A DNA stretch of 64,000 nt from positions 1-64,000 of the forward strand of contig NZ_NPEV01000007.1 in assembly GCF_003258835.1 (NCBI RefSeq). Direction: 5' to 3'. The notes under the pieces were generated by a model. That model searched no databases. It was not told the DNA's origin and was given only the letters and a program-made list of their open reading frames with translations. This DNA comes from Rhodobium orientis. Its GTDB lineage: Bacteria > Pseudomonadota > Alphaproteobacteria > Rhizobiales > Rhodobiaceae. Positions 5,131-51,373 of this stretch are shown here, piece after piece. The first letter of the stretch is position 1. Each line of letters opens with the position of its first letter. The translations under genes and the position numbers were made by a program.

Positions 5131-5148
5131 TCAAAGAGCTGGACAGGC

Positions 5149-5970: not shown

Positions 5971-5974
5971 ACAC

Positions 5975-9282: not shown

Positions 9283-9305
9283 GTGACATCGACACGGGCG
9301 CCGTG

Positions 9306-11737: not shown

Positions 11738-11753
11738 ACGGTTTCAGGGACCG

Positions 11754-12734: not shown

Positions 12735-12844
12735 ACGCGCGCGATCGCTAAGAAATTTCGTCTAGAGCCGTACTCGTGACGGCGGGCTCACTTGAAATGC
12801 TCCGACCCGCGGGTCGGAAATACACTCACGCGCGGGTTGCGTTT

Positions 12845-12912
12845 TTCCCGAAACAGACAACGTGCCTCAGCCCTTTGTTGTGACGCGATTTCCCATCCAA
12901 AACACCGCTCGC
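12845..12912. repeat. Degenerate intergenic repeat, copy 2 of 2
   Basis: The relative of 3708-3775, lying in the 195-bp gap between the TylF-type and sulfotransferase genes. Identity is partial but collinear over about 68 bases. Confidence 0.4.
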
Positions 12913-12929
12913 CTCCCTTGGAACGCATG

Positions 12930-13700: not shown

Positions 13701-13951
13701 TGGGCTTGTGTTTAGTCGGAACCTGATGGAACCGCAATGTCGGCCGCATGGAGCCGCCGCACCCGCCGCTGCCGGCGACGCTGACCGAGACGCCGATTTC
13801 GTGGCCACGCCGCCGTCACCCCCCTGGTCCCCGACCCGCAAACTCGTGATGAACCGGATTCCATCATGCAATGGCGCCGGGTCGTTTTACTGGCTATATG
13901 AGGCATGATATGAAGCCCGTGAATTCACGTCGAACGCTGGAGAAGCCTTAA

Positions 13952-14644
13952 ATGCCTAGCCTGGAAGGTGCCTATGAAAGGCACGCGAGAAACTGCGACG
14001 AGCAGGATTTCTGGCGCCAAGTTCGACGGACGATCAACGGCCAGCCGGTCCCGGAAGACCAGATCCAAATGATCATTCGGGAAATGATCTCCTTGATGGA
14101 TCTGGAGAGCGACGACGTTCTCCTGGATATTTGCTGCGGGAATGGCGCTCTCAGCACCTATTTCTGGGAGAAATGCAGCGGCGGCCTCGGCATCGATTAT
14201 TCCGAGACGCTTATCGGCGTTGCCCAGAAGTATTTTTGCGACAAACCGTCGGTCAGTTATCGGGCGGGTGAGGCGATTGAGTTTTTGAGCAACGAGGAGA
14301 ACCCGGAACGGTTCAGCAAAGCCGTCATCTTCGGCTCGATTTGCTTGTTCACACGGGAAAACGCCGAACGATTGCTGAAAATCACGCGTGACCGGTTTGT
14401 TAACATCAAGAGATTCGTCATCGGCAACGTCGTCGATCGCACCGGCATGGACGATTTTTACAAGCCCGGGGAATACGAACCGGGCATGGAAGATCGTCCC
14501 GACACCGCCATTGGCGTCTGGTGGTGGCCGGAGGACTTCAGCGAGATGGCGAAGCGCGCCGGATGGCGCACCGAGATCGTTAAAATGCCGGAAGACTTTT
14601 ATCAGAGGCACTACCGTTTCGACGCGATCTTGCGGCCAATGTGA
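13952..14644 (+). CDS. Class I SAM-dependent methyltransferase
   Basis: A 230-residue protein. Motif I reads DVLLDICCGNGALST (about 53-67), followed by motif II LGIDYSETLIGVAQ, both diagnostic of class I Rossmann methyltransferases. The later part (VVDRTGMDDFYKPGEY and WWPEDFSEMAKRAGW) fits the beta-4 to beta-5 region. The substrate is unknown. Its position at the head of the aminotransferase operon suggests N- or O-methylation of an amino sugar. The next gene starts with a GTG that overlaps its stop (GTGA). Base composition is lower in GC than the core genes, consistent with acquired DNA. Confidence 0.8.
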   Translation: MPSLEGAYERHARNCDEQDFWRQVRRTINGQPVPEDQIQMIIREMISLMDLESDDVLLDICCGNGALSTYFWEKCSGGLGIDYSETLIGVAQKYFCDKPSVSYRAGEAIEFLSNEENPERFSKAVIFGSICLFTRENAERLLKITRDRFVNIKRFVIGNVVDRTGMDDFYKPGEYEPGMEDRPDTAIGVWWWPEDFSEMAKRAGWRTEIVKMPEDFYQRHYRFDAILRPM

Positions 14645-16734: not shown

Positions 16735-17960
16735 CAAAACGCAGTATCGACGACCTGGCCCTCTTTGGCGGGGCGCCTCTATTCCAGACCGTTCGGCCCG
16801 TCGGCCAAATCTATATGCCGGCGCGGGATACGTTCGATACCTGGTTCGACGCGATAATCGAGCGACGTTATTACACCAATCACGGTCCGTTGGTTTCCCG
16901 TTTGGATCGTGCGATCGCCGAACGCCTTGACGTGAAACATGCCGTCTCCGTAACCAATGGGACGGTGGCGTTGATGGTTGCGCTGGTCGCCCTGGAACTG
17001 TCCGGCGACGTTATCGTGCCCGCGTTCACCTTCCCCGCGACGGTGCAAGCGTTGCATTGGGCCGGATTAACCCCGGTCTTTGCCGACGTCGACAGCAGGA
17101 CGCATATGCTGACGGCGGAAAGCGTCGCCAAGGTGAAGACGGACCGCACCAGCGCCGTGCTGGGCGTTCACGTCTGGGGCCGCGCCTGCGCGCCTGCGGA
17201 ATTGGAGGCCTATTGCCGGCAAAACGATCTCCGTCTCCTGTACGATGCTTGCCACGCATTCGGCTGCTCGTTCGACGGCAAGATGATCGGGAATTTCGGC
17301 GATGCGGAGGTGTTTTCGTTTCACGCGACGAAGATCGTCAACGCGGCGGAAGGCGGGTGCATCACCACCAACGACGACGACCTCGCCGCCCGCCTGATAA
17401 CCGCTCGAAATTTCCATCGCTCACCGAAGGACCAATCCGTCTACGTTCGGTTGAACGGGAAAATGAGCGAAGCGCAGGCGGCAATGGCCTTGATGGCACT
17501 GTCGCAATTCGAGGAATTCGTCGACCGGAACGAGGCCATTTATTCGACCTATGAGCGCGGCCTTGAGGGCACGAGCGGAATAAAGGCAATTCGTTACGAC
17601 AGACGTAATCGTAACAATTTCCAATATGCGGTTTTCGAGATTGAACCGGAAAGCTCCCTGTCCAGGGACCAGATTCTGGACGTTCTGCGCGCTGAAAACA
17701 TCTACGCGCGCCGATATTTCTTTCCGAGCGTCCACCGATTGTCGCCCTATTGCGATGCCCTGGACGGCGAAAAACGCGAGCTCCCCGTAACAACGTCGCT
17801 GTGTCAGACCGTATTGCAGCTGCCGCTGGGCGCCCAAATCAATCCCGAGGACGCGGAGCTGATCGCGGCACTACTCGATCTTATTTTGGAAAATGGTGAT
17901 GAAATAAAAGCAAGGGCTGAGGCCACGGCAGGTGCAAATAGTTTGCGAAGCGGTTGGTGA
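16728..17960 (+). CDS. DegT/DnrJ/EryC1/StrS family PLP-dependent sugar aminotransferase
   Basis: A 410-residue enzyme. Features include SVTNGTVALMVALVAL (PLP phosphate region), VIVPAFTFPAT, LLYDACHAFG with the PLP-contacting Asp, and the Schiff-base lysine Lys202 in SFHATKIVNAAEGG. The C-terminal part has NFQYAVFEI and ARRYFFPSVH, as in sugar aminotransferases that act on 4-keto or 3-keto NDP-sugars. The start is a GTG at 16728, overlapping the preceding gene by seven bases. It is clearly a tandem duplicate of the C-terminal half of the upstream fusion. The amino donor is normally glutamate. Regiochemistry (C3 or C4) cannot be judged by eye. Confidence 0.9.
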   Translation: MVAKRSIDDLALFGGAPLFQTVRPVGQIYMPARDTFDTWFDAIIERRYYTNHGPLVSRLDRAIAERLDVKHAVSVTNGTVALMVALVALELSGDVIVPAFTFPATVQALHWAGLTPVFADVDSRTHMLTAESVAKVKTDRTSAVLGVHVWGRACAPAELEAYCRQNDLRLLYDACHAFGCSFDGKMIGNFGDAEVFSFHATKIVNAAEGGCITTNDDDLAARLITARNFHRSPKDQSVYVRLNGKMSEAQAAMALMALSQFEEFVDRNEAIYSTYERGLEGTSGIKAIRYDRRNRNNFQYAVFEIEPESSLSRDQILDVLRAENIYARRYFFPSVHRLSPYCDALDGEKRELPVTTSLCQTVLQLPLGAQINPEDAELIAALLDLILENGDEIKARAEATAGANSLRSGW

Positions 17961-17965
17961 CGCAA

Positions 17966-18682
17966 ATGCGCTTGGGCATCATGCAGCCGTACTTCTTTCC
18001 GTATATTGGCTATTTCGACGTCATCGGCAAAACGGATCAGTGGATCGTCTTCGACGTAGTTAAATACCAGCCGAAGCACTGGATGAATCGCAACCGCATA
18101 CTTGAGCCAAACAAGGGCGAACAATACATCACCGTTCCCGTCGACAAAGCATCGGGGAGCCTCCTGACCGAGGTTCGGACCAAGGACGCTGACGCGGCGC
18201 GGGACAAGATACTCCGCCAGCTCTCCCTTTACAGATCAGTCGCACCGTTTTTCGACGATGTGTATGCCTTGGTCGATGAAACGTTCGCCAGATTTGACGG
18301 CGGCCTCCTGCGCGACCTGAATGTTATCGGCTTGCAGCTTGTTTGCGCGCGCCTCGAAATTCCGTTCAATTATAGTTTGTGCTCCAGCCACGATTTCGAT
18401 TTTTCAAATGTTTCTCACGCCGGTCAGTGGGCGCTTGAAATCTGCGACCAGTGTGGGGCAACGGGCTACGTCAACCCGCCGGGCGGGCGACCGATTTTCA
18501 AAATCGAAGAATGGCGCGAGCGCCAGATCGATATCGCGTTCACGTCCATGCCGGATTTCCGCTATGACGTCCGCAACCGATGGCAGTTCGTGCCGAACCT
18601 TTCCATACTCGACTGCATGATGTGGTCATCGCCGGATCGCATTCGCAGCTATCTCGCTGGCCTGAGCCTCGACCATCCATAA
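17966..18682 (+). CDS. WbqC-like family protein
   Basis: A 238-residue protein with the family opening MRLGIMQPYFFPYIGYFDVI. The downstream segment YQPKHWMNRNRIL and the ending around SILDCMMWSS (near DPxPxY-like positions) also fit WbqC. Members are found in O-antigen and aminosugar clusters beside aminotransferases and are thought to act as N-acyl or glycine-type transferases, but the mechanism is not firmly established. The ATG at 17966 gives the conserved N-terminus. A TTG at 17954 would overlap the preceding stop. Its place right after two DegT aminotransferases fits acylation of the new amino group. Confidence 0.85.
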   Translation: MRLGIMQPYFFPYIGYFDVIGKTDQWIVFDVVKYQPKHWMNRNRILEPNKGEQYITVPVDKASGSLLTEVRTKDADAARDKILRQLSLYRSVAPFFDDVYALVDETFARFDGGLLRDLNVIGLQLVCARLEIPFNYSLCSSHDFDFSNVSHAGQWALEICDQCGATGYVNPPGGRPIFKIEEWRERQIDIAFTSMPDFRYDVRNRWQFVPNLSILDCMMWSSPDRIRSYLAGLSLDHP

Positions 18683-18697
18683 CATTTGAACGCCGGC

Positions 18698-20221
18698 ATG
18701 CGACCTCCACGATTTCTCAGATCCGTTTTCACCCGATCGGCGAAGGGCATCGATGCGCCCGTTGATGATGCCTTCTACAACAAGAATTATGCCTACGATC
18801 TTCGCGGAATAGCGCCGTCCAAACACTACAGAAAATATGGTCGGGAGCGCGGGTTTCTGCCATCCCAGGACGTCGATCCCGACGCACAAGCACTTCTGGG
18901 GGGCCTCGGCGGCGGTGCCGAAGCGGATTTAAGTCCGGCGGAAATCTACGAAAAGCTTTGTCGGCATATTCTCGTTCACTTCCCGGAGTATGACGGTTTT
19001 TTCTGGACGTTCCTGGACACTCAGGCGCCGCCCGTGGCGGGCGCCCGCCGCTCCTACGATGAGGACCAGATGCGCCGCCGGGAACGACTCGCCGAGATGT
19101 CGTTCACGCTCGGCGGGCGCACCTGCCAGATCGATCAGCCGTCGACAGACGAGTTCCTGTCGTCACTGTCGTCCTCGACCCCGGTCTTCCATGGCCGCTT
19201 GCCGCACGGGTTCTGGGATGCGCTCTCCAGGACCTTCACGATCCGGCGCATTCTGGCGGACCAGTTCAGTCAAGATCCCGCCGATGAAAAGACGCTTCGG
19301 CTCGCCATTCGCATCACGCGGGCGATCGCACCGCATACACCGGTCCTGTTTGAGAACGTCATTTCAGAGACCTTCGATATCGCGAACAAATTGCCGACGG
19401 ATCTGGAAATCGCGTTGGCCTTCAAATCCTTCCCGGATGGCGGCCCGGGTATTTTCGGCAGCGCAGCGGAATTGCCGCCGCGCGCGCCGTTCGTGTTCGA
19501 GGCCGCCGCAGAATGCCTGGGCGAACGACGCGTGTTCGGCGACGCCATGCTGCTGAAGCGGGTTGTCATGGCCGGCGAGTTCAACGCCTTCATCGACACC
19601 ATCCGCGGCCGGCCTGTTCTGTTGATTGCGAACGAGGGGCTTGCCGACTTTGGCCGGCGTTTTGATATCCCGAATTGCCTTTTCATAGAGATCCCCCCCT
19701 TCGACTCGCAGGAATTCCGGCAACAGATCCTGCAGAGGTGCCGCGAGGGGCTTCGCCACCTGTCGGATCAGAGCTCGCGCCAGACGCCGCCTATTGTCCT
19801 CACGCGGTGTGGCGGGTCGTTCAGCTTCTGGCTTTTCGGTCAGTTGCACGCCGAATTTCCGTCGGCATCCTATGTCGACATCGGACAAGCGATAAATCTC
19901 TGGTTCCTCGACAAAGAGGGCATCGTGTTGCCCGGCGGCTTGCCGTGGACAGCCGGGTTGGAAAAACAGCTCGCGCTCAACAAGTTGCAGGAATTCTACA
20001 GAGAGAAACTGCGCATCGATGATTTCAAATCATTCCATATCGAGCGCCACGGCGTTGCCGACCCGCAAACCCGTTGGCGCAGCGGCAGCCGCTTCATGGA
20101 CTACGCCCGACTCCTGTCTCGTTTCGGCTTGATGGAGAACGTGCGCGTTTGCGTGGAGCGTGCATTGGAAGAACGCCCGGACGACCCAGCCGCACTGCAA
20201 ATGCTGTCAAGATTGTCATAG
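18698..20221 (+). CDS. Uncharacterised glycan-island protein, paralogue of the 20334 gene
   Basis: A 507-residue protein with no firm family. Near residues 25-55 it has one FY...HY...G module (DDAFYNKNYAYDL, SKHYRKYGRERGFLP) like those in the 854-residue glycosyltransferase. The rest aligns along its length with the convergent 20334 gene. The best-conserved block is GRPVLLIANEGLADFGRRF (from about 304), then IEIPPFDS, then PIVLTRCGGSFSFWLFGQL (about 365) and YVDIGQAINLWFLD (about 391-405). The last two resemble the end of GT-D-fold glycosyltransferases (DUF1792), where a LxxLG...DIGH pattern occurs. This link is weak. The start could also be TTG 18686. It ends the 13952-20221 operon. Confidence 0.6.
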   Translation: MRPPRFLRSVFTRSAKGIDAPVDDAFYNKNYAYDLRGIAPSKHYRKYGRERGFLPSQDVDPDAQALLGGLGGGAEADLSPAEIYEKLCRHILVHFPEYDGFFWTFLDTQAPPVAGARRSYDEDQMRRRERLAEMSFTLGGRTCQIDQPSTDEFLSSLSSSTPVFHGRLPHGFWDALSRTFTIRRILADQFSQDPADEKTLRLAIRITRAIAPHTPVLFENVISETFDIANKLPTDLEIALAFKSFPDGGPGIFGSAAELPPRAPFVFEAAAECLGERRVFGDAMLLKRVVMAGEFNAFIDTIRGRPVLLIANEGLADFGRRFDIPNCLFIEIPPFDSQEFRQQILQRCREGLRHLSDQSSRQTPPIVLTRCGGSFSFWLFGQLHAEFPSASYVDIGQAINLWFLDKEGIVLPGGLPWTAGLEKQLALNKLQEFYREKLRIDDFKSFHIERHGVADPQTRWRSGSRFMDYARLLSRFGLMENVRVCVERALEERPDDPAALQMLSRLS

Positions 20222-20228
20222 CGCGGAT

Positions 20229-20322
20229 TCCCGAAAAGCGGAAACCGGTTTGCCGGCAAGAATACGCGTCAAAACAAAAGGTTAGAGCAGTTCGGGCGAT
20301 TCCGTAATCGCCTGAAATCATC
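20229..20322 (+). repeat. Intergenic mosaic repeat, family D, copy 2
   Basis: Same modules as 5031-5130: AAGAATACGCG, CAAAACAAAAGGTTAGAGC and a terminal hairpin (TTCGGGCGATT pairing with AATCGCCTGAA, 20291-20313). It sits between two convergent genes and may double as a transcription end. Confidence 0.6.
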
Positions 20323-20333
20323 CAAGCGTGCGG

Positions 20334-22133
20334 TCACGCACCCTGTTTTTTTACCAATTGGTTCAACCGGTTCGTAAATTGCGGTTTCTCGCCGAGTTGC
20401 CGCATTGCCTCCGTCAGCACGGCGATTGCCCGGTCGGCCCTGCCCGTCTTTTCATAGGCTATGGTCAATTGGATGACCGGGACACGCGATAGGTCGTCGC
20501 CAATACGCGAGGTCAAGTCGATGAACTCTTCAAACCGCCGTTCGTCGAATAGAATGGCGGCGTATATTTGCTTTGCGACAATGAGCGAGTCGTCCAGGTG
20601 AATCGCTCGCTCGGCGGAGAGCTTCGCTTCCGGAAGATTTCCGATGCGCCTGTAAAGGCGCGCAAGCAGAACATGCGTTCTGGACAGGTCCGGCGCCGTC
20701 TCCCTGGAGCGCTCCGCGAAAACCACAGCCCGTTCGTACAGTTCGAAACGATTAAGAAGGTTGGCAAAGTCGAGGTTGCCATCGAATTTTGGCAGGGATT
20801 TCAAATAGGTCCCATCGAAAAACCGCTGACGTAGAACATCCCTGCTGTCGGAAACGCCTAAGAGCTCGTCGTAGAACGAAAAAAGATCATTGGATTCAAG
20901 GATCTTCTCCCAAAAATCCTGCAACCAGAGCATATCCGGTTTGCCCGCCTCGGCATCATCGAGAAACCAGATGTTGATGGCCTGCCCGATGTCAAAATAG
21001 GCAGCATCCGGACAGCGCTGTGAGAGATGAAACAACAGCCAGAAGGCGAAGGACCCGCCGGCCTGGGTCAGCACGATCGGCACCTCCGTCGACCGCGATT
21101 CAGCTCGGACGGACGCCATGAATTCGCACACCTCATCGAGAATCCGGTGCCGTATCGCAAGGCTGTCCCAGGGCGGGATCTCGAAGTGATGGAAATCTCT
21201 CAATCCCCATCTGCGACCGAGATCGGCAAAGCCCGAATTCGCGATCAGAATGACGGTTCGGTCCCTCATGGCATCGATCAGGCGCCGGATGCTGCCGGTG
21301 GAGGCGTATCGCTTCCAGGCAATGCCATCTTCAAAGACAAAGCCGTCGGGAAAGTGCTTGATCAAGAACGCGGTCGTCGCCTCGAAGCGGCGCTGCGTGG
21401 GCGGAGCCGACCCGAACAAACCATCCGGAATCTCCGGATGCGCCTTCAGGGCCAGACACACCGAAAAGGTCCCGCCATTTTCGAGGAGGATCGATTCGAC
21501 CTCCTCGACGAAATTCTCCGTGAACAATGGGTGATTGGGAAAGACCTGCTTGAGGATCCGGAGCCCCAGTCTCTGCGCTTTCTCTTCGGTGTCGACGATC
21601 GGCCATAGTCGTCCAATGATCGGCGAAATGACGTTGAGGCGCGCAATCATGTCCAGAAAGCCATGCGGCAAACGGGGAAACAGGCAGGCCTTGCCGGACG
21701 CGATTATCTCGCAGAGATCGTCGGGAGCCCGCTTTCTTAGCTGGAATTTCTTGTCGCCAGCGGCGAAGGAAATCGTGCCTGCCGCGTCGACCTTGTCCCA
21801 TTGTCGCAACGTCGACCTGTTGCGCTTGAAATGATCCTTCTCGATCTGGGTATCGGAGAACCGCCAAAAAAAGGCGTCCGCATCCTCGACGCACGCCAGG
21901 ACATCGCGCGCGATCGATTTGAGGAGCGCGTCCAGTCCGGCCTCGGCGATGCCGCGCGCCTGGGACTCTTCATCCAGATCCGGATAGCAAATCGCGGCGA
22001 CCAACGGATCGAACGCCGCATTCGGCATCAGGCCTTTCGAGCGACCGTCCCGTTCGTAGTGTTCGCCAGGTGTCAGCGGCCCGCTCAGAAGTTTGTAATG
22101 CTGACGGTAAAAGACGTCATCAACGAACATCAT
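20334..22133 (-). CDS. Uncharacterised glycan-island protein with C-terminal TPR-like repeats
   Basis: A 599-residue paralogue of the 18698 gene. Near the N-terminus is a single FY/HY module (VDDVFYRQHYKLL, GEHYERDGRSKGLMP). The middle matches its paralogue: RLPHGFLDMIARL, RTVILIANSGFADLGRRW, FEIPPWDS, PIVLTQAGGSFAFWLLFHL and YFDIGQAINIWFLDD. The last 130 residues, absent from the paralogue, look like tetratricopeptide repeats (LARLYRRIGNLPEAKLSAERAI and AYEKTGRADRAIAVLTEA). Two ATGs (22133, 22130) are possible starts. An upstream TTG (22151) is less likely. It follows the 22160 methyltransferase gene by 26 bases on the same strand. A sugar-transfer role is inferred only from its neighbours and the weak GT-D resemblance. 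Confidence 0.6.
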   Translation of the reverse strand: MMFVDDVFYRQHYKLLSGPLTPGEHYERDGRSKGLMPNAAFDPLVAAICYPDLDEESQARGIAEAGLDALLKSIARDVLACVEDADAFFWRFSDTQIEKDHFKRNRSTLRQWDKVDAAGTISFAAGDKKFQLRKRAPDDLCEIIASGKACLFPRLPHGFLDMIARLNVISPIIGRLWPIVDTEEKAQRLGLRILKQVFPNHPLFTENFVEEVESILLENGGTFSVCLALKAHPEIPDGLFGSAPPTQRRFEATTAFLIKHFPDGFVFEDGIAWKRYASTGSIRRLIDAMRDRTVILIANSGFADLGRRWGLRDFHHFEIPPWDSLAIRHRILDEVCEFMASVRAESRSTEVPIVLTQAGGSFAFWLLFHLSQRCPDAAYFDIGQAINIWFLDDAEAGKPDMLWLQDFWEKILESNDLFSFYDELLGVSDSRDVLRQRFFDGTYLKSLPKFDGNLDFANLLNRFELYERAVVFAERSRETAPDLSRTHVLLARLYRRIGNLPEAKLSAERAIHLDDSLIVAKQIYAAILFDERRFEEFIDLTSRIGDDLSRVPVIQLTIAYEKTGRADRAIAVLTEAMRQLGEKPQFTNRLNQLVKKQGA

Positions 22134-22159
22134 GCACTCGCGGGAACACAAGGGTTTCT

Positions 22160-23110
22160 TTATTTTTTCTTCGTGAAGATCATCGCATAATCAGCGGGAA
22201 ACTTTTCCGATTGCTGGCTCTTGTAGTCCCGGTTGATGTAGCGAGAGAGCATTCCATTCATTCGGGACAGTTCCCGATCGTTTGCGGCTTGCGCAAAATG
22301 TCCCATCGCGAACAGGGCCAGCGACAGGAAAAGATCGCCGTTTGGTCTGACCTCGAGGTTCAGGTCGTTGCGTTCGGCGTATTCGTGATAGATGTCGATT
22401 GTCGGTGTCCCGCACTCCAAGTGCTCGACAATCCACTGGAGCGGCCCGAAAACTTCGAGCAAGAATTTCTGACGTTCGACGGCATCCCCGGTATCGACGG
22501 GATTGCAGAGGATCACGCCCTTTTTTCCAAGCGCCAGCAAGGATTGGAAAAAATCTTCCTTATCGTCGTCGGGAATATGTTCGAAGACATGGACAGCGAG
22601 AGCGACGTCGAATTCGTAGCCAGCGGCCACAAGATCCGTCGACATCATGTTGTTGATCGTCGGCTCGCATAACAGGTAATTCGCATTTTTCAAGAACTGC
22701 GCGATGAAACCGGTGTGGCCGCCAATGTCGACGATGCTGAGGTCGTCATGGCCAAAATGCTCGAAGACGAGATCGGCCGTTCTCTGGTTCCTGGCGTAGC
22801 GCACCCCCTGATTGAGGAGCTGATCCCCGGTCATTTGTGTCGATGCAAGGTCATCCTGGTCGACGTCGGCACCGAGGAACTTGGCCGAGCGGAGCATGGA
22901 ATGCGCGAGCACGATTTGCCCCGACGCCTTCGCACGCCTTGCGGCATCGACGTAAGCATTCGCATCGAAAATGTCTTCTTTTTCAATCCAAAGTTGGTTT
23001 TCGTTGCCAGGCACGTGACGCGACCAATCCTCTGTGAGGGAAAACTTGTCGGCAGAAATGGCGCCGCCAATCCCCCCGTTTAACCGTATCGATCCTTTAC
23101 CATAAGCCAC
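22160..23110 (-). CDS. Class I SAM-dependent methyltransferase
   Basis: A 316-residue protein. About 120 residues precede the methyltransferase core, which begins with LSIVDIGGHTGFIAQFL (motif I). It continues with LLCEPTINNM, VALAVHVFEHIPDDDK (the HVFEH motif common in Methyltransf_11/23 proteins) and KGVILCNPVD. The substrate is unknown, presumably a sugar or lipid of the local glycan pathway. The start is a GTG at 23110. No in-frame ATG is near. It is the first gene of a two-gene minus-strand unit with the 20334 gene, pointing away from the tRNA boundary. The DNA is AT-rich relative to the core genes to its right. Confidence 0.75.
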   Translation of the reverse strand: MAYGKGSIRLNGGIGGAISADKFSLTEDWSRHVPGNENQLWIEKEDIFDANAYVDAARRAKASGQIVLAHSMLRSAKFLGADVDQDDLASTQMTGDQLLNQGVRYARNQRTADLVFEHFGHDDLSIVDIGGHTGFIAQFLKNANYLLCEPTINNMMSTDLVAAGYEFDVALAVHVFEHIPDDDKEDFFQSLLALGKKGVILCNPVDTGDAVERQKFLLEVFGPLQWIVEHLECGTPTIDIYHEYAERNDLNLEVRPNGDLFLSLALFAMGHFAQAANDRELSRMNGMLSRYINRDYKSQQSEKFPADYAMIFTKKK

Positions 23111-23493
23111 GCGAACGCGGCTATGACTTTCTCACCGGCCGCCCCGGAACAAGACAGCATTGTCTCGTCCGTTCGGGGGCCGGCCTCAAGGAGAAACACC
23201 GCACCGGAAAATGCTCGTGCAATGGCACGTTTCTTTTTTCATGAAATCGGTTTATTCGCAGGCGCCATGCCGCCGACACACCTTTCGAGGTTCAGCATAG
23301 ATCTCGCGTCAACGGAACCGGAAACATAAGAATGCTTGGGGAAACCTGTGGATGCACCCGACGTGCATCGAAACCAATTGGCGGCGCACCCCGCGACTGC
23401 TGCGCATTGTCTCCGAAAACGAGGCCGCGGCCCGCGCCTTCGCCCGCCTCCGCGGAGCAAGGGAATGAACGGAGCTTCGTGGCCGGAAAACGG

Positions 23494-23577
23494 GTGGATG
23501 TGACCGGAACGATTTCCAGCCCCGTGGGCTCGCAAGGCCGAACGGCCGGCCCGGCCGCCCCCGCGGGGCCGCGAACA
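23494..23577 (+). repeat. Hairpin-rich intergenic repeat, family E, copy 1
   Basis: Layout: GTGGATGTGACCGG, hairpin AGCCCcgtGGGCT, the constant CGCAAG, hairpin GGCCGaacGGCC, then further GC-rich palindromes. Copies lie at 23614, 25579, 32341, 32445 and 59120. Stem sequences differ between copies while staying self-complementary. Confidence 0.6.
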
Positions 23578-23613
23578 AGGTGAGCTGGCGTGAGCGGGAC
23601 TATTGGAGAAATG

Positions 23614-23713
23614 GTGGACGTAACTGGAGTGAATTCGAACCCGCAGGGTTCGCAAGCGCGACCGCGCGCCGGTCGGTCAGACCGCCCCATCGGAGACCTG
23701 AGCGAAGCGAAGA
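23614..23713 (+). repeat. Hairpin-rich intergenic repeat, family E, copy 2
   Basis: A tandem neighbour of copy 1. It starts GTGGACGTAACTGG, then has hairpin GAACCCgcaGGGTTC, constant CGCAAG, hairpin GCGCGaccGCGCGC, CCCATCGGAG and a GAGCGAAGCGA tail. Confidence 0.6.
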
Positions 23714-23734
23714 TACGTCGCGAGATATGGAAAC

Positions 23735-23810
23735 TGGTGGAGCCGAGGGGAATCGAACCCCTGACCTCTGCAGTGCGATTGCAGCGCTCTCCCATCTGAG
23801 CTACGGCCCC
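23735..23810 (-). tRNA. tRNA-Ala (anticodon CGC)
   Basis: A 76-nt cloverleaf on the minus strand. The acceptor stem GGGGCCG pairs with CGGCTCC and includes a G3-U70 wobble pair, the hallmark of alanine tRNA. The D arm is GCTC/GAGC. The anticodon stem CTGCA/TGCAG encloses loop ATCGCAC, so the anticodon is CGC, reading GCG codons. The T arm is AGGGG-TTCGAAT-CCCCT, and the 3' ACCA is encoded. Its 3' end faces the glycan island. Confidence 0.97.
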
Positions 23811-23979
23811 GGAATGTCGGCCATTTAGAGTCCGGCCCCGGAAGCTGTCAAGCGCAATGCGGCGCACCGCCCCGTTTTCGCGCGGCAATTTGCGGGTGCC
23901 GCGGTCTTGCGGGGCGACGTCCGCACAGCTACATCTTGCCGAAATCAACGCAACACCCCAAAGCGAGCGGATCCGCTTC

Positions 23980-24273
23980 ATGTGCTCTGTCACCCAATTG
24001 CTGCTGGTTATCCTCAACCTGATGATCTGGATCGTGGTCGCCAGCGCGATCTTCTCCTGGCTCTACGCCTTCAACGTGGTCAACCCGCGCAACCAGTTCA
24101 TCGCCATGATCGGCAATGCGCTCTACCAGTTGACGGAGCCGCTCTACCGGCCGATCCGCCGCTTCCTGCCCGATCTCGGCGGGCTCGACCTGTCGCCGGT
24201 GATCGTGCTGCTCATCATCTTTTTCCTCGACATGCTGATCCGCAACAACCTGGTGCCGATGTTCTGCTACTGA
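23980..24273 (+). CDS. YggT family membrane protein
   Basis: A 97-residue membrane protein of the YggT family. It has two hydrophobic segments, [20 protein letters not shown] near the N-terminus and [15 protein letters not shown] near the C-terminus. Between them lies the conserved [23 protein letters not shown] motif with its Pro-Ile-Arg signature. The start is set at ATG 23980, because the frame upstream to 23857 is not membrane-like and does not match the family. In other bacteria yggT sits beside a DUF167 gene, as here. Its function has been linked to osmotic stress and membrane or division assembly, but this is not settled. Confidence 0.9.
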
Positions 24274-38597: not shown

Positions 38598-39470
38598 TTA
38601 CCCCCTGAGCCGCGCGCTGATCTCGTCGAGCTGTTCCAATGTCTTGTAGCGGATCTGGACCGAGCCGCCGGCCTCGCCGCGATGGTCGATGACCACGTTT
38701 AGGCCGATGGCATCGGTCAGGCTCTTTTCCAGCGCGCGGGTGTCGGCGTCCTTTTCCGGCTTGGCCCTGGCCGCCTTCTTCGGCCGGTCCGACACGGTCT
38801 GGGTCATCAGCTCCGCCTCGCGGACGCTGAGATTGCCGTCGACGATCTGCCTGGCGAGGTCTTCCGCATCGTCGCGCGTGATCAGGGTGCGCGCGTGACC
38901 AGCCGTGAGCTTGCCGTCGAGCACATAGGTCCGCACCACCTCCGGCAGGCGCAGGAGGCGCATGGTATTGGCGACGTGGCTGCGGCTCTTGCCGATGACC
39001 TTGGCGAGTTCGGCCTGGGAATAGGAGAATTCCTCGGTCAGCCGCTCATAGCCGAGCGCCTCTTCGATGGCGTTGAGGTCGGAACGCTGCACGTTCTCGA
39101 TGATCGCCAGCTCCAGCGCCTCGCGGTCGGTGACGTTGAGGACAACCACCGGCACGTCGTGGAGGCCGGCACGTTGCGCCGCCCGCCAGCGTCGCTCACC
39201 GGCGATGATCTCGTAGGACCGGCCACTGTCGTCGACGGGGCGCACCACGATCGGCTGGACGATGCCCTTTTCCTTGACGGAAGCGACGAGATCGGCGAGG
39301 TCGTCCTCGTTGAAATTGCGCCGCGGGTTGCGCGGGTTGCCGCGCAGGAATTCCACGGGAAGCCGGCGCTGGCTGTGCGCGCGCTCGACCGCGGCGTCTT
39401 CCGTCTCCACATCGCCGAGCAGGGCGGCAAGCCCCCGGCCGAGCCGCTTTTTCGATGCTGCCTCGCTCAT
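38598..39470 (-). CDS. parB: Chromosome partitioning protein ParB
   Basis: A 290-residue CTP-dependent DNA clamp that loads at parS. It starts MSEAASKKRLGRGLAALLGD (ParA-interacting N-terminus). It continues with LVASVKEKGIVQPIVVRP, box II GERRWRAAQRAG and the helix-turn-helix SQAELAKVIGKSRSHVANTMRLL. The C-terminal dimerisation domain ends LEQLDEISARLRG. GGAG lies six bases before the ATG at 39470. parS-like sites lie within 1.5 to 7.5 kb. It is downstream of parA on the same strand, the standard order. Confidence 0.97.
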   Translation of the reverse strand: MSEAASKKRLGRGLAALLGDVETEDAAVERAHSQRRLPVEFLRGNPRNPRRNFNEDDLADLVASVKEKGIVQPIVVRPVDDSGRSYEIIAGERRWRAAQRAGLHDVPVVVLNVTDREALELAIIENVQRSDLNAIEEALGYERLTEEFSYSQAELAKVIGKSRSHVANTMRLLRLPEVVRTYVLDGKLTAGHARTLITRDDAEDLARQIVDGNLSVREAELMTQTVSDRPKKAARAKPEKDADTRALEKSLTDAIGLNVVIDHRGEAGGSVQIRYKTLEQLDEISARLRG

Positions 39471-39557
39471 CGATTTCTCCTCAAAGGTCATTCCAGCAAG
39501 CAGACTCCGAATCATTTCGGATGCGAATCCGCCCTTCGCCAGTCTACATCGTTTCGG

Positions 39558-40388
39558 TTATGCTGCGGCGTTGTTCAGGCGCTTTTCGCGCTGGATGATC
39601 TCCGAGGCCAGCTTCAGGTAGGCCTGACTGCCGGCGCAGTTGAGATCGTAGAGCAGCGCCGGCTTGCCGTAGGACGGCGCTTCCGACACCCGGACATTGC
39701 GCGGGATGACGGTCTGGTAGACCTTGTCGCCGAGGGTCTCGCGCACATCGGCCGCCACCTGGTCCGACAGATTATTGCGGCTGTCATACATGGTCAGCAC
39801 GATGCCGTGGATGGAAAGGCCCGGGTTGAGTGCCGTCTTGACCTGCTCGACCGTGGAGAGGAGCTGGGTCAGGCCTTCCAGCGCAAAGAACTCGCACTGC
39901 AGCGGCACGAGGATGGCGTTGGAGGCGACGAGCGCGTTGATGGTGAGGAGATTGAGCGAGGGCGGGCAGTCGATGAGCACGTAGGAGAACCGCTCCTCCG
40001 GCTCCAGCGCCGACATCTTTTCCTCAAGCCCGGCGATCGCCTTCTTGAGCCTGACGGACCGATCCCGGTCCTGGGAGATCTCAAGCTCGACGCCGAGCAG
40101 GTCGAGCGTCGACGGTGCGATCCAGAGCCGCGGCACCGATGTCTCCAGGATGACGCGGGCCAAAGGCGCCTCACCGGTCATGACGTCGTAGGTCGAGGCC
40201 TCGCGCGCCTTGCGGTCGATGCCGAGACCGGTCGATGCGTTGCCCTGGGGATCGATATCGAGGATCAGCACCCGCTCGCCGATCGCCGCCAGCGCCGTGC
40301 CGAGATTGATTGCCGTCGTCGTCTTGCCGACCCCGCCCTTCTGATTGGCAAGGGACAGGATACGCAAACCCTTCGTCTTCGAAATCAT
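39558..40388 (-). CDS. parA: Chromosome partitioning ATPase ParA
   Basis: A 276-residue ATPase of the ParA/MinD family. The deviant Walker A is NQKGGVGKTTTAINLG near residue 15. DIDPQGNASTGLG follows, and the Walker B region contains YVLIDCPPSLNLLTIN. It binds DNA non-specifically as an ATP dimer and moves ParB-parS complexes. The ATG at 40388 is supported by GAGG about eight bases upstream. An in-frame GTG at 40397 is possible. It sits between rsmG (upstream) and parB (downstream). Confidence 0.97.
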   Translation of the reverse strand: MISKTKGLRILSLANQKGGVGKTTTAINLGTALAAIGERVLILDIDPQGNASTGLGIDRKAREASTYDVMTGEAPLARVILETSVPRLWIAPSTLDLLGVELEISQDRDRSVRLKKAIAGLEEKMSALEPEERFSYVLIDCPPSLNLLTINALVASNAILVPLQCEFFALEGLTQLLSTVEQVKTALNPGLSIHGIVLTMYDSRNNLSDQVAADVRETLGDKVYQTVIPRNVRVSEAPSYGKPALLYDLNCAGSQAYLKLASEIIQREKRLNNAAA

Positions 40389-40418
40389 GGTGGTCACCTC
40401 TCGTAACCGGCCCGCTTG

Positions 40419-41060
40419 TTACCGCCGCTGCAGGTGTCGAATCACGACGATCCGACTGTCCGGTTCGATACTGCTCGCCTTTTCTACCAGATCGATGATC
40501 CAGAAACGATTTGCTTCTTCCAGTTCCCGGGAAAAATCCCGTCCCTTGTGGAAAACGGCAACAGCGCCTTGCACGACAAGTGGTGCGGCGAATCCGCAAA
40601 GCTCGGAAAGCGAGGCGAGCGCCCGGGCCGAAACCGCATCGACCGGGGCGTCCCAGTCGGCAACCACGTCCTCGATACGGGCCACATGGACCGTCGCGGG
40701 AATACCGGTTTCACGTGAAACCGTTCGTAAAAACGAGGCCTTGCGCTGATCGCTTTCGACCAGATCGACGTTGGCTCCGGGCGTCTCGGCAAGCAGGATC
40801 GCGGTGACGATGCCGGGGAATCCGGCGCCGCTGCCAAGGTCCATCCAGCGCTTCGCATGGGGGGTGGCGGCAAGTGCCTGGGCGCTGTCTGCCACATGCC
40901 GTGTCCACAAGTTCTCCACAGTCTTTCCAGAGACGAGGTTGATACGTTTCTGCCAGCGCCTCAGCAGATCGACATAGATCGACAGCCGTTCGGCCGATTC
41001 ACGTGAAACATCGAGAATGGATCGGACGGCCTCGACACTCTCCGGCAGCGGCTTGGTCAC
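40419..41060 (-). CDS. rsmG: 16S rRNA (guanine-527-N7) methyltransferase
   Basis: A 213-residue SAM enzyme (GidB). Motif I is [19 protein letters not shown], followed by [16 protein letters not shown] and [14 protein letters not shown]. The start is a GTG at 41060 that overlaps the mnmG stop by four bases (GTGA), giving [14 protein letters not shown]. Two parS-like sites lie inside the coding region and encode VSRET (40707-40722) and DVSRE (about 40995-41010). So it serves as both gene and centromere sequence. Upstream frame extension into mnmG is a shadow. Confidence 0.95.
40707..40722. other. parS site 1 (GGTTTCACGTGAAACC)
   Basis: A perfect 16-bp palindrome with the parS core TTTCACGTGAAA, compared with the consensus TGTTTCACGTGAAACA. 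It is inside rsmG, close to parA. ParB is expected to load here. Confidence 0.9.
40995..41010. other. parS site 2 (CGATTCACGTGAAACA)
   Basis: The right half GTGAAACA is perfect. The left half has two changes from consensus. It is inside rsmG near its start. Confidence 0.85.
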
Positions 41061-42931
41061 GCCGCATCCTCGCTCGCCCGCCGGCGCCTCGCATGGGCGA
41101 GAAGCAGGGTCAGCGCCGCCGGCGTCATGCCGTCGATGCGCGCGGCCTGGCCGAGCGTTTCCGGCCGGACGCGCTCCAGCTTGTGGCGCACCTCGTTGGA
41201 AAGCCCGGAAATGGACCCGTAGTCGAGATCGGCCGCAAGTCTCAAATCCTCGTCGCGCCGGAACGCGGCGATGTCGGCGTCCTGGCGCTTCAGATAGACG
41301 GCGTAGACCGCCTCGATCTGGAGCTGTTCGCGGATTTCCGGAGACAGAGCACCGACCTCCGGCCAGATGGCGGCAAGCCGGTCCGCATCGATATCCGGAA
41401 AGGAAAGGAGTTCCAGCGCTGTCCGCCGCGTGCCGTCCTGATTGAGAGAAAGGCCGTGGCGCTGGCCTTCGCTGGGCGTCAGGCTGAGAGCGCTCAGCAT
41501 CTCCCGGCCTCGCTCCAGGACCGCCATCTTCTCGGAGAAACGTCCTGACCGCTCCGGGCCGACACAGCCCCACGCCTCCCCGAGTGGGGTGAGTCTCTGA
41601 TCCGCATTGTCCGCCCGCAGCGACAGCCGGTATTCGGCCCGCGAGGTGAACATCCGGTAGGGCTCCGAAACACCCCGCGTCACGAGATCGTCGACCATGA
41701 CCCCGAGATAGCCCTCGTCGCGCCCGACTGTGACGCCGTCGCCGCCGCCCGCAAGGCGCGCCGCATTGACGCCGGCCAAGAGCCCCTGCGCCGCCGCTTC
41801 CTCATAGCCCGTGGTGCCGTTGATCTGGCCGGCGAGGAAAAGACCCGCGACGCGGTTGGTCTCAAGCGTCGGCCGCAGCTCGCGCGGATCGATGTGGTCG
41901 TATTCGATGGCGTAGCCAGGCTGCAGGATCGTCGCGCGCTCAAGGCCGGGAATGGTCCGCACATAGGCTTCCTGCACCTCTTCCGGCAGGCCGGTGGAAA
42001 TCCCGTTCGGATAAACGGCGTGATCGTCGAGACCTTCCGGCTCCAAAAAAATCTGGTGGCCGTCCCGGTCGCCGAACCGGACCACCTTGTCCTCGATGGA
42101 TGGGCAATAGCGCGGACCGGTGGAATCGATCTGGCCGGAATAGATCGGCGACAGCCCGATATTGTCGCGGATGATGTCGTGGGTCTGTTCCGTCGTCCGG
42201 GTGATGTGGCAGACGATCTGCGGCGTCGAAATCCGATCCGTCAGCGTGGAGAACGGCATCGGCGGATCGTCGCCTTCCTGCACGGCAAGCGCATTCCGGT
42301 CGATCGTCCGCCCGTCGAGCCGGGGCGGGGTCCCGGTCTTCAGCCGCCCGAGCCGGAACCCGAACCGTTCGAGGCTGGCGGACAGGCCCGTCGCCGGCGC
42401 CTCGCCGACCCGCCCCGCCGGTATCTTTTTCCGGCCGATATGGATCATACCGCGCAGGAACGTGCCCGTCGTGAGCACGACCGCGCCGCAGGCAAAGGAC
42501 CGACCATCGGAGAGCACGAGCCCAGTCACCCGCTCACCCGCGAACGAAATATCCTCCGCCCCGCCCTCGATCACCGTCAGGTTTTCCGTTGCGGCGATTT
42601 CGGTCTGCATCGCCTCGCGATAGAGCTTGCGGTCGATCTGGGCGCGCGGCCCGCGCACGGCCGGACCCTTGCGCCGGTTGAGGAGGCGGAACTGTATCCC
42701 GGCCCTGTCGGCCATTCGGCCCATGAGCCCGTCGAGGGCATCGACCTCGCGCACCAGGTGGCCCTTGCCGAGACCGCCGATCGCCGGATTGCAGGACATC
42801 GCGCCGACCGTATCGAACCGGTGGGTGACGAGGGCCGTGCGTGCGCCGAGCCGCGCGGAAGCGCTTGCGGCCTCCACGCCGGCATGCCCGCCGCCGATCA
42901 CCATCACGTCGAAATCGGTCGCTCTCGTCAT
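41057..42931 (-). CDS. mnmG: tRNA uridine 5-carboxymethylaminomethyl modification enzyme MnmG
   Basis: A 624-residue FAD protein (GidA). It starts [22 protein letters not shown] with the dinucleotide-binding motif. [23 protein letters not shown] and [15 protein letters not shown] follow. The C-terminal part has [25 protein letters not shown], the conserved GidA signature. It works with MnmE to modify the wobble uridine of several tRNAs. The ATG at 42931 is preceded by GGAAAG. The frame is open to 43063, but the extension is not family sequence. Order mnmE-mnmG-rsmG-parA-parB is the classic origin-proximal cluster. Confidence 0.97.
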
Positions 42932-43055
42932 CCGCTTTCCGTAAATCCATCGCGCGCCGGGAGCAAATCGCCCCGCCGCTTTGCCCCGGTTATGGGTACA
43001 AACATGTGGAAAATCAATTCGCAAACCCGGTTTTGAGTCGACTTTTGGGAAAACC

Positions 43056-43071
43056 TGTTTCACGTGAATCC
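43056..43071. other. parS site 3 (TGTTTCACGTGAATCC)
   Basis: The left half TGTTTCAC is perfect. The right half has two changes. It is in the mnmE-mnmG intergenic gap, 19 bases from site 4. Confidence 0.85.
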
Positions 43072-43090
43072 GGCGTCTCGGCCGTATATC

Positions 43091-43106
43091 GGATTCACGT
43101 GAAACA
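43091..43106. other. parS site 4 (GGATTCACGTGAAACA)
   Basis: The right half is perfect. The left half has two changes. Together with site 3 it forms a mirror-image pair just after the mnmE stop codon. Confidence 0.85.
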
Positions 43107-43112
43107 TACGGC

Positions 43113-44444
43113 CTATTTGCCGATACAGAACTCCGCGAAGATCACGTCCAGCACATCCTCCACATCGATCCGCCCCGTGATCCGCCCGAGCGCATCGCCC
43201 GCGTGCCGCAGTTCTTCCGCCATCAGCTCCGCGTCGCCAACGGCTTCCGCCCGCACCAGCGCGTCCCGGCATGCCGTAAGCGCCGCCCGATGCCGCTCCC
43301 GCGTCGCCATCGCAGACCCAAGCCCCGCGAATTTTTCTCCGGCAAACGCCGCAAGCTTCTCCTGAAGACGGTCGAGGCCCGCACCAGTCTTCACCGAAAT
43401 CGCGAGTGCATCGTCTCCGGCATCAAAACCGTCCCCGACCAGATCGGCCTTGTTGGCAATCGGCCAGACCGTTCCCGCCGCTGACACGACCCCGTCCGGC
43501 ACACCCGTCCTCCGCCCGGATGCATCCTCCATCCACAACACGAGGTCCGCGTCACTCCCCCGCGCCAGTGCCCGGCGGATGCCCTCGCGCTCGACGATCC
43601 CTTCCGCTTCACGAAGCCCGGCCGTGTCGATCAGCATCACCGGATAGCCGGAAAGGTCGAGATGGACCTCCAGCACATCCCGCGTCGTGCCCGCCTCCTC
43701 CGTGACGATAGCCACGTCGCGCTTTGCCAGCGCATTCATCAGGCTCGATTTGCCCGCATTGGGCGGTCCCATCAGAGCGACCTGCAGCCCGTCGCGCAGC
43801 CGCTCTCCGCTCCGGCCTTCTCCGAGCTTCGTTTCGATCCCGATTCGAAGATCGGAAAGAACCGCGCGGTCCGCATCCGTGACCGAGGCGAGCACATCCT
43901 CCTCCTCGGCAAAGTCGAGCCCGGCCTCGATACGGGCCCTCAGCCCGATCAGGCGGCGGCGCCAGCCTTCCACCAGATCGCCGAAGCTGCCGCAAAGCTG
44001 CGACAGCGCCTGGCGCCGCTGCGCCTCCGTCTCCGCAGCGATCAGATCGGCAAGCCCCTCGACCCGTGTCAGATCCAGCTTGCCGTTGTCGAAGGCGCGC
44101 CTGGAAAACTCTCCCGCCTCCGCCGGCCGCACCCCCTCGAACGATCCGAGCGCCTCGAGCACCGCCCCGACCACCGCCCGTCCGCCATGGACATGAAATT
44201 CCGCAACATCCTCGCCGGTCGCGCTCGCAGGCCCCTCGAAGAACAGCACCACGGCCTCGTCGAGCACGGCACCGTCGCGCGGATCCTTCAGCGCCCGCAG
44301 CATCGCCCGCCGCGGCTCCGGTACGATTCCAGCCATCGTTTCGAGGACGAATCGAACCCTCGGCCCGCTCAGCCGAACGACCGCGATGGCCGAGGGAAGC
44401 GCACCGCTCGATAGCGCGAAGATCGTTCCTGTCCGATTGTCCAC
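43113..44444 (-). CDS. mnmE: tRNA modification GTPase MnmE
   Basis: A 443-residue GTPase (TrmE) partner of MnmG. The N-terminal folate-binding domain starts [27 protein letters not shown]. The G domain has the P-loop [25 protein letters not shown] and [10 protein letters not shown]. The C-terminal CIGK corresponds to the catalytic CxGK, with the usual Phe replaced by Ile. The GTG at 44444 has AAGG five bases upstream and gives the right N-terminus. The frame is open to 44510. The stop lies six bases from parS site 4. It is divergent from the thioredoxin-domain gene. Confidence 0.96.
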
Positions 44445-44521
44445 GCTGGCCTTTTCTCCGTGGACCGTCCCGCTAGTTAGGAACGGAAGCCGTTTTTGCG
44501 ATTTCACCAAAAGGATTTCCC

Positions 44522-46537
<2,016 letters not shown>

Positions 46538-49092: not shown

Positions 49093-50148
49093 TCAAACCG
49101 TTTCGCCGCGCACCAGCGCGACCATTTCCGCAACATTCTCCACCGGCGTGTCCGGCGTCACCCCGTGACCGAGATTGAAGATGAAAGGACCGGAGCCGAG
49201 CGCATCGACGACCCGTCGGACACCCGATTTCAGCGCCTCACCGCCGGCAACCAGACGCATCGGATCGAGATTGCCCTGTACCGCACAGGTCTTCTGCAGC
49301 CTCTTGGCGAAATCGAGCGGCACCGACCAGTCGAGGCCGACCGCATTGACGCCGGTCGCGTCCACATAGCGTTCCAGGAACATGCCGACGCCCTTCGGGA
49401 AGCCGATGATCCGCGCGCCCGGTATTTCCGCCCGCACGCCGGCGACAATACGCCGCATGGGATCCACCGCCCAGCGTTCGAAGCCTTCCTCGTCGAGCGC
49501 ACCGGCCCAACTGTCGAAGACCTGGACGGCATCCGCGCCGCGCTCGAACTGGGCGACGAGATAGCGGATCGAGGCTTCCACCAGCCGGTCGATCAGCCGG
49601 TCGAAGCCGGCGCTGTCGGAAAAGGCGACCCTGCGGGTCGGCGCCTGGTCGGACGAGCCGCGACCGGCAACCATATAGGTGGCAACGGTCCAGGGCGCCC
49701 CGCAAAAGCCGAGCAGCGTCGTCTCCGACGGCAGACTGGCGCGGATGAGCCCGACCGCATCGAGCACCGGCGCCAGCTTCTCCGTCACGACGCTCGGGTC
49801 GAGCTTGGCCGCCGCATCAAGGCCGATCGGCTCCAGGATCGGACCGATCCCTTCTTCGAAGCGCACCGGCTGGCCGAGCGCATCGGGAACGACGAGGATG
49901 TCGGAGAACAGGATCGCCGCATCGAAGCCGTAGCGCCGGATCGGCTGCAGCGTCACTTCGCACGCCAGCTCCGGGTTATAGCAGAGATCGAGAAAGCTGC
50001 CGGCCTCGGCCCGCGTCGCCTTGTATTCCGCCAGATAGCGTCCGGCCTGCCGCATCATCCAGACAGGCGGCGGAGACAGTGTCTTGCCATCCAGAGCCTG
50101 GACGATCCGGCGCTCGGTGCGGGTGTTTTCCTGACTGCGATAATCCAC
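49093..50148 (-). CDS. hemE: Uroporphyrinogen decarboxylase
   Basis: A 351-residue cytosolic enzyme that removes four carboxyls from uroporphyrinogen III. Conserved motifs are [46 protein letters not shown] and [14 protein letters not shown]. The start is a GTG at 50148, with AGAGGA five bases upstream. The gene faces away from the ppsR gene, and the gap between them is the probable replication origin. In Caulobacter the hemE promoter also overlaps the origin. An adjacent hemJ supports a heme block. Confidence 0.97.
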
Positions 50149-50533
50149 GGCGATCCTCTAATAGAGTCTAGAATCCAGACTGATTTTGTTGTTTGCGCGT
50201 GGATTATCGGGATAAAGCATCATCCACATACGATACAGTTTTTTCCGGGCCACCATTGCGCCATAGGGTCGCGAAACCCGAAAGGCTGTTAAGTTCGGGG
50301 ACAGGCACCCATGCCATATGGCATTCAAAGGGATGGCGGCGCTATTTCGGAAAACTCCGGGTTGACGAGGGGGGAAAGCGTGTCCCCAATCCCCGCTTTT
50401 CACCGTCCGGGCTTGTCCTTTTTCCCGCAAGCGGTTTTGTTGAAAACCGGACGGGCTGTCCCGCCCGCCGCTCCACCCGCCGCATCCGTCACGCGGTTTT
50501 CCGGATTTTGTACACAGCACTGGGGATGAAGGC
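50149..50533. other. Candidate chromosomal replication origin (hemE-ppsR intergenic region)
   Basis: 385 bp with no gene. DnaA-box-like sequences: TCATCCACA (50220-50228) and TTGTACACA (50508-50516), each one mismatch from TTATNCACA, plus the weaker CGTGGATTA (50198-50206). TCCCCA motifs lie at 50383-50388 and, inverted, at 50521-50526. Two GANTC methylation sites (50164-50168 and 50171-50175) sit near hemE. 50175-50245 is distinctly AT-rich. The location between hemE and the DUF299 (RP001-like) gene is that of the Caulobacter/Rickettsia origin. Nearby genes diverge from it. Confidence 0.75.
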
Positions 50534-51373
50534 GTGCGCAACAACCTCGACTACTTCCATCTCCACCTGGTCTCCGATTCCACCGGCGAGACGCTGATGA
50601 CGGTGGCCCGCGCCGCCGGCGTGCAGTACCGCGAGACCCAGCCCGTCGAGCATGTCTATCCGATGATCCGCTCCGACCGGGCGCTCGACCGGGTGCTGGT
50701 GGAATTGGAACATGCGCCGGGGATCGTCCTTTATACGGTCATGGACCTGGAAATCGCCGCCCGCCTGGAAAACCGCTGCCTGGAGCTGGGCCTTCCCTGC
50801 GTCAACGTGCTCGATCCCGTGCTCAACGTGTTCCAGAACTATCTGAACACGCCGCTCGCCCGCCGTGTCGGCGGCCAGCACGAGATGAACGCGGAATATT
50901 TCGACCGCATCGAGGCCCTCAATTTCACCATGGCCCATGACGACGGCCAGATCCCGGACAATGTGGATTCCGCCGACGTGGTCGTCATCGGCATCAGCCG
51001 GACTTCCAAGACCCCGACCTCGATCTATCTCGCCAACCGCGGCATCAAGGCGACCAACATCCCGATCGTGCCCGGCATCCCGCTGCCGCCGGCCCTGTTC
51101 GAGGCCAAGAAACCATTGATCGTGGCGCTGATCGCCACGGCCGAACGGATCGGTCAGATCCGCCAGAACCGGCTGCTGGCGCTGAATGCCAGCGACGCCA
51201 ATTCCAGCTATGTGGACCGCCGCGCCATCGCCGAGGAGGTGACCTACACGCGGCGCATGTGCGCGGAACACGGCTGGCCGCTGATCGACGTCACCCGCCG
51301 CTCCATCGAGGAGACCGCAGCGGAAATCCTGTCGCTCCTCAGCCAGCACCGGGCCCGCCAGCACGAGCAATAA
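50534..51373 (+). CDS. Pyruvate,water dikinase/PPDK regulatory protein (DUF299)
   Basis: A 279-residue bifunctional kinase/pyrophosphorylase of the DUF299 family. The P-loop is [18 protein letters not shown] near residue 155. The N-terminal [13 protein letters not shown] and the segment YTVMDLE also match. It regulates phosphoenolpyruvate synthase or pyruvate phosphate dikinase by phosphorylating a threonine. Which target applies here is unknown. The start is GTG 50534, with GGGGATG just upstream. It is the RP001 homologue that flanks the origin in alphaproteobacteria. It opens the ppsR-maf-aroE-coaE-dnaQ series. Confidence 0.95.

Follow-up and report, generated by a model that had tools for sequence, protein, structure and literature searches.

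A probable chromosomal origin of replication between hemE and ppsR in Rhodobium orientis

The 385 bp intergenic gap between the divergent genes hemE and ppsR is very probably oriC, the chromosomal replication origin, and would belong to the hemE type already known in Alphaproteobacteria; judging from the sequence, we assign to this reading a probability of about 0.92. The gap occupies positions 50149..50533 of the window, i.e., the 64-kb stretch of DNA that was analysed, which represents the beginning of the 125-kb contig C222 (genome of 5.19 Mb, 244 contigs). The first-pass annotation had already proposed it as a probable origin, and the proposal is supported by a gene context shared by most of the genomes of the order that harbor both genes, by a cluster of DnaA boxes detected with a model trained outside the genus, by the conservation of the hemE end of the gap, by the clustering of parS-like sites in the genus, and by the divergence of KOPS motifs in the relatives. 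The location agrees with that published for Alphaproteobacteria; the surprising part is only the one-armed GC skew, which is kept apart from this verdict.

According to the mechanism that we propose, DnaA would occupy an array of boxes, approximately 7 to 11 in number and mostly weak, distributed over the gap, and would open the AT-richer block on the hemE side (about 50150-50250), and two forks would depart from the gap in opposite directions. The new origins would be separated by ParAB acting on parS sites located hemE-ward, with a possible control of firing by CcrM methylation.

Gene organization around the gap

The hemE gene (49093..50148, minus strand; TIGR01464, 396 bits) has its start-codon side at 50148, and the frame of ppsR (50534..51373, plus strand; NF003742, 331 bits) starts at 50534; the NF003742 family (ppsR) corresponds to DUF299/COG1806. 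The flanking of the gap by hemE and RP001/DUF299, as previously annotated, is thus exact in its coordinates. On the hemE side, the family matches placed all the frames of named families (hemJ, rho, mnmE, mnmG, rsmG, parA, and parB) on the minus strand. On the ppsR side, maf, aroE, coaE, and a DnaQ-type exonuclease are located on the plus strand and are followed by secB and fxsA on the minus strand, so that the rightward plus run comprises five genes only. The idea that the genes are read away from the gap therefore holds for the named families from hemE to parB, and on the other side it stops after the fifth gene. The gene calls are rough, and at least the one at 44522-46537 on the plus strand is probably wrong, since an overlapping minus-strand frame is the conserved one.

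The same organization was searched for in 120 genomes of the order (own genus counted), 118 of which have a hemE match and 103 a ppsR match. In 94 of the 103 genomes harboring both, the two genes are adjacent and divergent, and 373-632 bp (median 444) separate them. The nine exceptions are represented by four genomes with hemE and ppsR on separate contigs, four genomes of one family (f11) with only a weak ppsR match, located on another contig, and G033, where the two genes are distant on a single contig.

In this latter genome, the two genes map at 956 kb and 7091 kb of the contig, and G072, belonging to the same family, keeps the adjacency; comparing the two genomes offers a natural experiment on whether the origin stays with hemE or with ppsR.

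Analysis of the DnaA boxes

The presence of DnaA-box-like sequences in the gap, suggested by the first-pass annotation, was corroborated by a search for TTWTNCACA at one mismatch, which retrieved four matches (50220, 50438, 50506, and 50508, the last two overlapping) against about 0.15 expected per 385 bp; the whole 64-kb window harbors 38 of them against 25.6 expected. The exact TTATNCACA box (the perfect DnaA box) did not occur in the gap. Consensus boxes were discarded as the sole criterion, the signal being too weak to decide.

A weight matrix for DnaA boxes was seeded with TTATCCACA, refined on hemE-ppsR gaps outside the genus, and then applied to the genus. The sites that it predicts in the gap are mostly weak, none of them being perfect. 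From the hemE side they are ATAATCCACGC (50197..50207, minus strand, 7.4 bits), TTTATCCCGAT (50206..50216, minus strand, 8.8 bits), ATCATCCACAT (50219..50229, plus strand, 11.9 bits), CCTGTCCCCGA (50295..50305, minus strand, 7.9 bits), the weak CGTGTCCCCAA (50379..50389, plus strand, 6.9 bits), GTTTTCAACAA (50437..50447, minus strand, 9.9 bits), TTTGTACACAG (50507..50517, plus strand, 9.5 bits), and the strongest one, TTCATCCCCAG (50520..50530, minus strand, 13.1 bits). In the congener G001, the second and the fourth sites are retained, the seventh is replaced by TTTGTTCACAG (12.5 bits), and the fifth has no listed counterpart; the first, the sixth, and the eighth each have a minus-strand site at approximately the same place in both G001 and G002, the other congener. 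The 13.1-bit predicted site stops 3 bp short of the ppsR start codon; because of this position, DnaA could influence ppsR expression.

The number of sites of at least 7 bits in the gap (seven) was not equaled in any of 1000 shuffles, whose mean was 1.1 and whose maximum was 6. Moreover, when 400-bp clusters of boxes were ranked in three stretches, the gap came first every time: in the 124 kb of the own contig (score of 101.7, next 68.3; mean 16.7, sd 11.7), the 240-kb contig of G001 (99.1, next 59.2), and 400 kb of G002 sampled to include the gap (93.6, next 64.0). The first scan model was based on 36 training gaps, among them the identical L002 and L030; in the word count and shuffle run on 38 gaps, which included those of the window and of G002, only L036 and L014 were dropped as near-duplicates and L002 and L030 were both kept. 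The final box model was trained on 34 gaps, none of them from the genus, with near-duplicates removed. The scans and counts were repeated on these 34 gaps and the outcome was unchanged, with scores (and next-best scores) of 100.2 (68.8) for the own contig, 97.6 (58.9) for G001, and 86.7 (59.9) for G002.

In the same 34 gaps, four DnaA-box core words are strongly enriched over shuffled sequences: TCCACAG (25 gaps, 36 sites vs. 1.6), TTATCCCC (13 gaps, 14 sites vs. 0.5), TGTCCACA (10 gaps, 13 sites vs. 0.3), and TCATCCACA (7 gaps, 7 sites vs. 0.2). The first three were not found in the gap of the window. Only TCATCCACA, the word listed with the third site, is present, and the boxes of this gap are therefore more divergent. 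The box model works even in the absence of consensus DnaA boxes.

The dnaA locus was also considered as a candidate origin and was rejected: no box cluster was found in 3.5 kb at dnaA (maximum 31.6), and in G002 dnaA lies approximately 196 kb from the gap.

Sequence conservation and other motifs

For the comparison with G001, 124 kb of the own contig were matched on both strands against a single 240-kb contig of this congener. The longest of the 438 exact runs of at least 40 bp is a 165-bp stretch (50085..50249) that embeds the first 64 bp of hemE together with the adjoining end of the gap. Over the 100 bp of the gap nearest to hemE, the identity to G001 is complete (100 out of 100 positions), the value for the enclosing 24-kb block being 89%. 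The run contains both GANTC sites, the AT-richest part of the gap, and three boxes; it is the strongest candidate for an unwinding core and likely includes the unwinding element together with the core boxes. Outside this hemE-side block, the box positions are hardly more conserved than the remainder of the gap (82 out of 86 positions matching G001 for the eight boxes, 276 out of 299 for the rest).

The most AT-rich part, which represents the candidate unwinding element, spans 50164..50208 (60-63% AT per 30 bp), with a maximum of 63% over the 30 bp at 50164-50193, adjacent to hemE. An AT-rich stretch, as earlier annotated, is present, but it is a modest one, not exceeding 63% AT per 30 bp in a gap of 44% AT.

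Two GANTC (CcrM-type) sites had been reported in the gap as well, and they were retrieved at 50164..50175 (starts at 50164 and 50171). The genome carries RAMA-domain (CcrM-like) and GcrA genes, and in the 34 gaps of the training set GANTC is over-represented, with 134 sites vs. 78.8 in shuffles; on this basis, methylation timing may bear on the firing of the origin. Caulobacter W-boxes read TCCCCA, and the TCCCCA motifs indicated in the gap by the first-pass annotation do exist, in two copies.

The same annotation had suggested a scan for DnaA and CtrA sites, the two halves of which differed in their outcome, the former returning the box cluster with seven sites of at least 7 bits and the latter, probed with TTAA-N7-TTAA, returning no match in the gap. 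This CtrA motif was not found in the gap of G001 either, and it occurs once in that of G002; in the gaps outside the genus, it was found in 12 out of 34 (13 sites vs. 0.1 in shuffles). The strict IHF site WATCAANNNNTTR has no match in the gap of the window and is present in 5 of the 34 gaps outside the genus. Strict CtrA control thus finds no support in this gap, which, lacking TTAA-N7-TTAA, is therefore not filed as a CtrA-controlled, Caulobacter-type Cori.

Position of the GC-skew minimum

The first-pass annotation had indicated a cumulative GC-skew minimum at the gap as support for the origin, an expectation only partly borne out: the hemE arm is skewed, but the ppsR arm shows little skew and the minimum falls 8-10 kb ppsR-ward of the gap, at about 60 kb of the own contig and about 170 kb of that of G001. 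This raises the possibility that the origin lies some kb ppsR-ward, at the turn of the cumulative skew near 60 kb of the window. It would agree with the strand-balanced skew at 4-fold sites, which between the gap and the minimum is still negative (-0.152 in the own contig and -0.121 in G001). However, no comparable box cluster exists there, the second-best one, at 52446 within aroE, scoring 68 vs. 102 for the gap, and the own skew value is carried by only 7 plus-strand and 3 minus-strand genes. Furthermore, a whole-strand component of the skew on the ppsR arm (see below) would be expected to displace the turning point anyway. We consider this displaced location very unlikely; placing the origin at the gap means that, in this genus, local GC skew alone would err by some kb.

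ParABS system and KOPS polarity

The parB gene (38598-39515, minus strand; Pfam ParB_N, HTH_ParB, and ParB_C) and a parA-like gene (39558-40397, minus strand; Pfam AAA_31) are located on the hemE side of the gap. A search for parS sites, allowing up to two mismatches from the 16-base pattern, covered all three genomes of the genus in full. The window harbors five parS-like sites (40707..46533, starting at 40707, 40995, 43056, 43091, and 46518), each with two mismatches, 3.6-9.4 kb hemE-ward of the gap. In total, 14 of the 15 sites of the genus fall on this side at 3-10 kb from the gap (5/6 in the own genome, 5/5 in G001, and 4/4 in G002), and a control search with the reversed pattern retrieved no site in any of the three genomes.

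The sixth parS-like site of the own genome, TGTTTCACATGAAACG, maps beyond the window on the ppsR side (70845-70860 of the own contig), and none of the five G001 matches is its counterpart.

Four of the five parS-like sites of the window (40995, 43056, 43091, and 46518) contain a GANTC (GATTCACGTGAAAC), possibly a CcrM site within parS. Among the parS matches listed for the order, 17 of the 30 one-mismatch sites carry this same change (hand count). GANTCs are mentioned at the parS locus of Caulobacter (PMC5172544).

The orientation of the KOPS motif (GGGNAGGG) was analysed in five relatives sampled on both sides of the gap, where 230 out of 285 motifs point away from it (34/42 in G002, 100/119 in G018, 33/37 in G038, 22/33 in G042, and 41/54 in G060). 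The same was observed for 22 out of 30 motifs in six genomes with a single stretch on each side; the own contig (4/6) and G001 (11/17) have too few. In G018 and G038 the orientation flips again approximately half a chromosome away. The divergence point is not sharp, the two nearest ppsR-side stretches of G018 giving 1 to 2 and 2 to 2, and on the hemE side of G002 the ratio is merely 10 to 7.

The parS and KOPS data also bear on the reading of the gap as a shared control region only, where DnaA would regulate the transcription of hemE and ppsR, with the origin lying elsewhere; the divergence of the two genes and the 13.1-bit site just upstream of ppsR fit with this, but the gap is the densest box cluster of each scanned stretch, the dnaA locus lacks one, and parS clustering together with KOPS divergence in the relatives mark the origin here, which leaves such a reading scarcely credible.

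One-armed GC skew

Raw GC skew was compared on the two arms, hemE and ppsR, always on the strand on which ppsR is plus. The near-gap stretches of G033, whose hemE and ppsR are not adjacent, and the gap-spanning stretches of G018 (L101) and G002 (L071) were left out. The values (hemE arm/ppsR arm) were -0.042/+0.004 for the own contig, -0.045/0.000 for G001, -0.060/-0.007 for G002, -0.052/-0.004 for G038, -0.033/-0.011 for G018, and -0.016/-0.012 for G060, whose skew is weak on both arms. An ordinary flip was observed in G042 (-0.038/+0.037), the hemE arm of which has one stretch of opposite sign, and four stretches of E. coli K-12, used as a control, gave the ordinary mirrored pattern (-0.044/+0.047).

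A gene-strand artefact was rejected as the cause of the flat ppsR arm, the asymmetry persisting at 4-fold sites split by gene strand. At these sites, the whole-strand component is -0.093 (se 0.008) in G002, -0.073 (0.009) in G018, and -0.072 (0.010) in G038, i.e., at least 7 standard errors in each. It is -0.065 (0.011) in G001, -0.052 (0.031) in the own contig, -0.026 (0.014) in G060, -0.021 (0.027) in G042, and +0.013 (0.020) in E. coli. Six more genomes, with single near-gap stretches, range from -0.116 (G107) to +0.031 (G052); among them, G047, G099, and G113 have little skew, G074 and G107 are strongly skewed on the hemE side, and G052 flips in the ordinary way in raw skew but not at 4-fold sites.

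A one-armed skew, oriented in the same way with respect to the origin, was thus observed in sampled members of three families (own genus, G018, and G038); G060 shows it weakly, and G042 does not show it as such. Since in these members of the three families the ppsR-plus strand has an excess of C over G on either side of the origin, the leading strand is G-rich on the hemE side and not on the ppsR side. The simplest cause of the whole-strand component in the sampled families would be a partly unidirectional replication of the main chromosome, with the hemE-ward fork having historically copied more than half of it and the KOPS being kept symmetric by selection; we regard such a lopsided replication as unlikely. 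Unidirectional replication is shown for the chromids of Pseudoalteromonas (PMC7858055). In the literature searched, no published account of the skew polarity relative to a hemE-type origin was found.

Comparison with known origins

The origins of Caulobacter and Rickettsia are described as sitting in a hemE-side gap of the same type (PMC1914354). The Cori of Caulobacter crescentus (hemE/CC0001) shares with the gap analysed here the flanking genes and a similar length (404 bp; PMC1914354), the prevalence of weak DnaA boxes, being provided with G- and W-boxes (PMC4468827), and the presence of GANTC sites (PMC3973325). It differs in its five CtrA sites and one IHF site (PMC1914354), the gap of the window lacking any full CtrA and strict IHF site.

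In Azorhizobium caulinodans and other rhizobia, the chromosomal origin is likewise surrounded by a conserved gene cluster, and in Azorhizobium the KOPS are oriented from origin to terminus, which supports the origin there (PMC2443382). The predicted origin of Azorhizobium coincides with the GC-skew shift (PMC2443382), whereas here the turn is displaced by 8-10 kb and the ppsR side is nearly skewless. The origin of Hyphomonas neptunium is also near hemE, with parAB about 7 kb away, and there too neither GC skew nor DnaA sites pointed clearly to a location (PMC6650430). That origin was mapped by marker frequency, with a peak close to hemE (PMC6650430), whereas the one proposed here is derived from sequence.

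Concerning the skew, SkewDB contains about 250 chromosomes with an at least threefold difference in GC skew between the strands, and its authors count highly asymmetric skew among the data that are hard to explain (PMC8941118). As in those chromosomes, one strand is here GC-skewed and the other has little or no skew (PMC8941118). Compared with the SkewDB cases, the skewed arm can here be oriented against the origin, being the hemE arm in the three families sampled (weak in G060). A one-armed skew of known polarity relative to the origin makes the SkewDB anomaly testable by marker frequency.

Other features of the contig

Beyond the window, a segment of the own contig (84637-88910) is inverted with respect to G001. 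Within the window, the region 4000-24000 has a lower GC content (56-63%) and harbors DegT-type aminotransferases, a glycosyltransferase, and a methyltransferase; it may be a polysaccharide cluster, close to the origin, that has been exchanged. The matched pieces between 14 and 21.5 kb share just 66-71% identity with G001.
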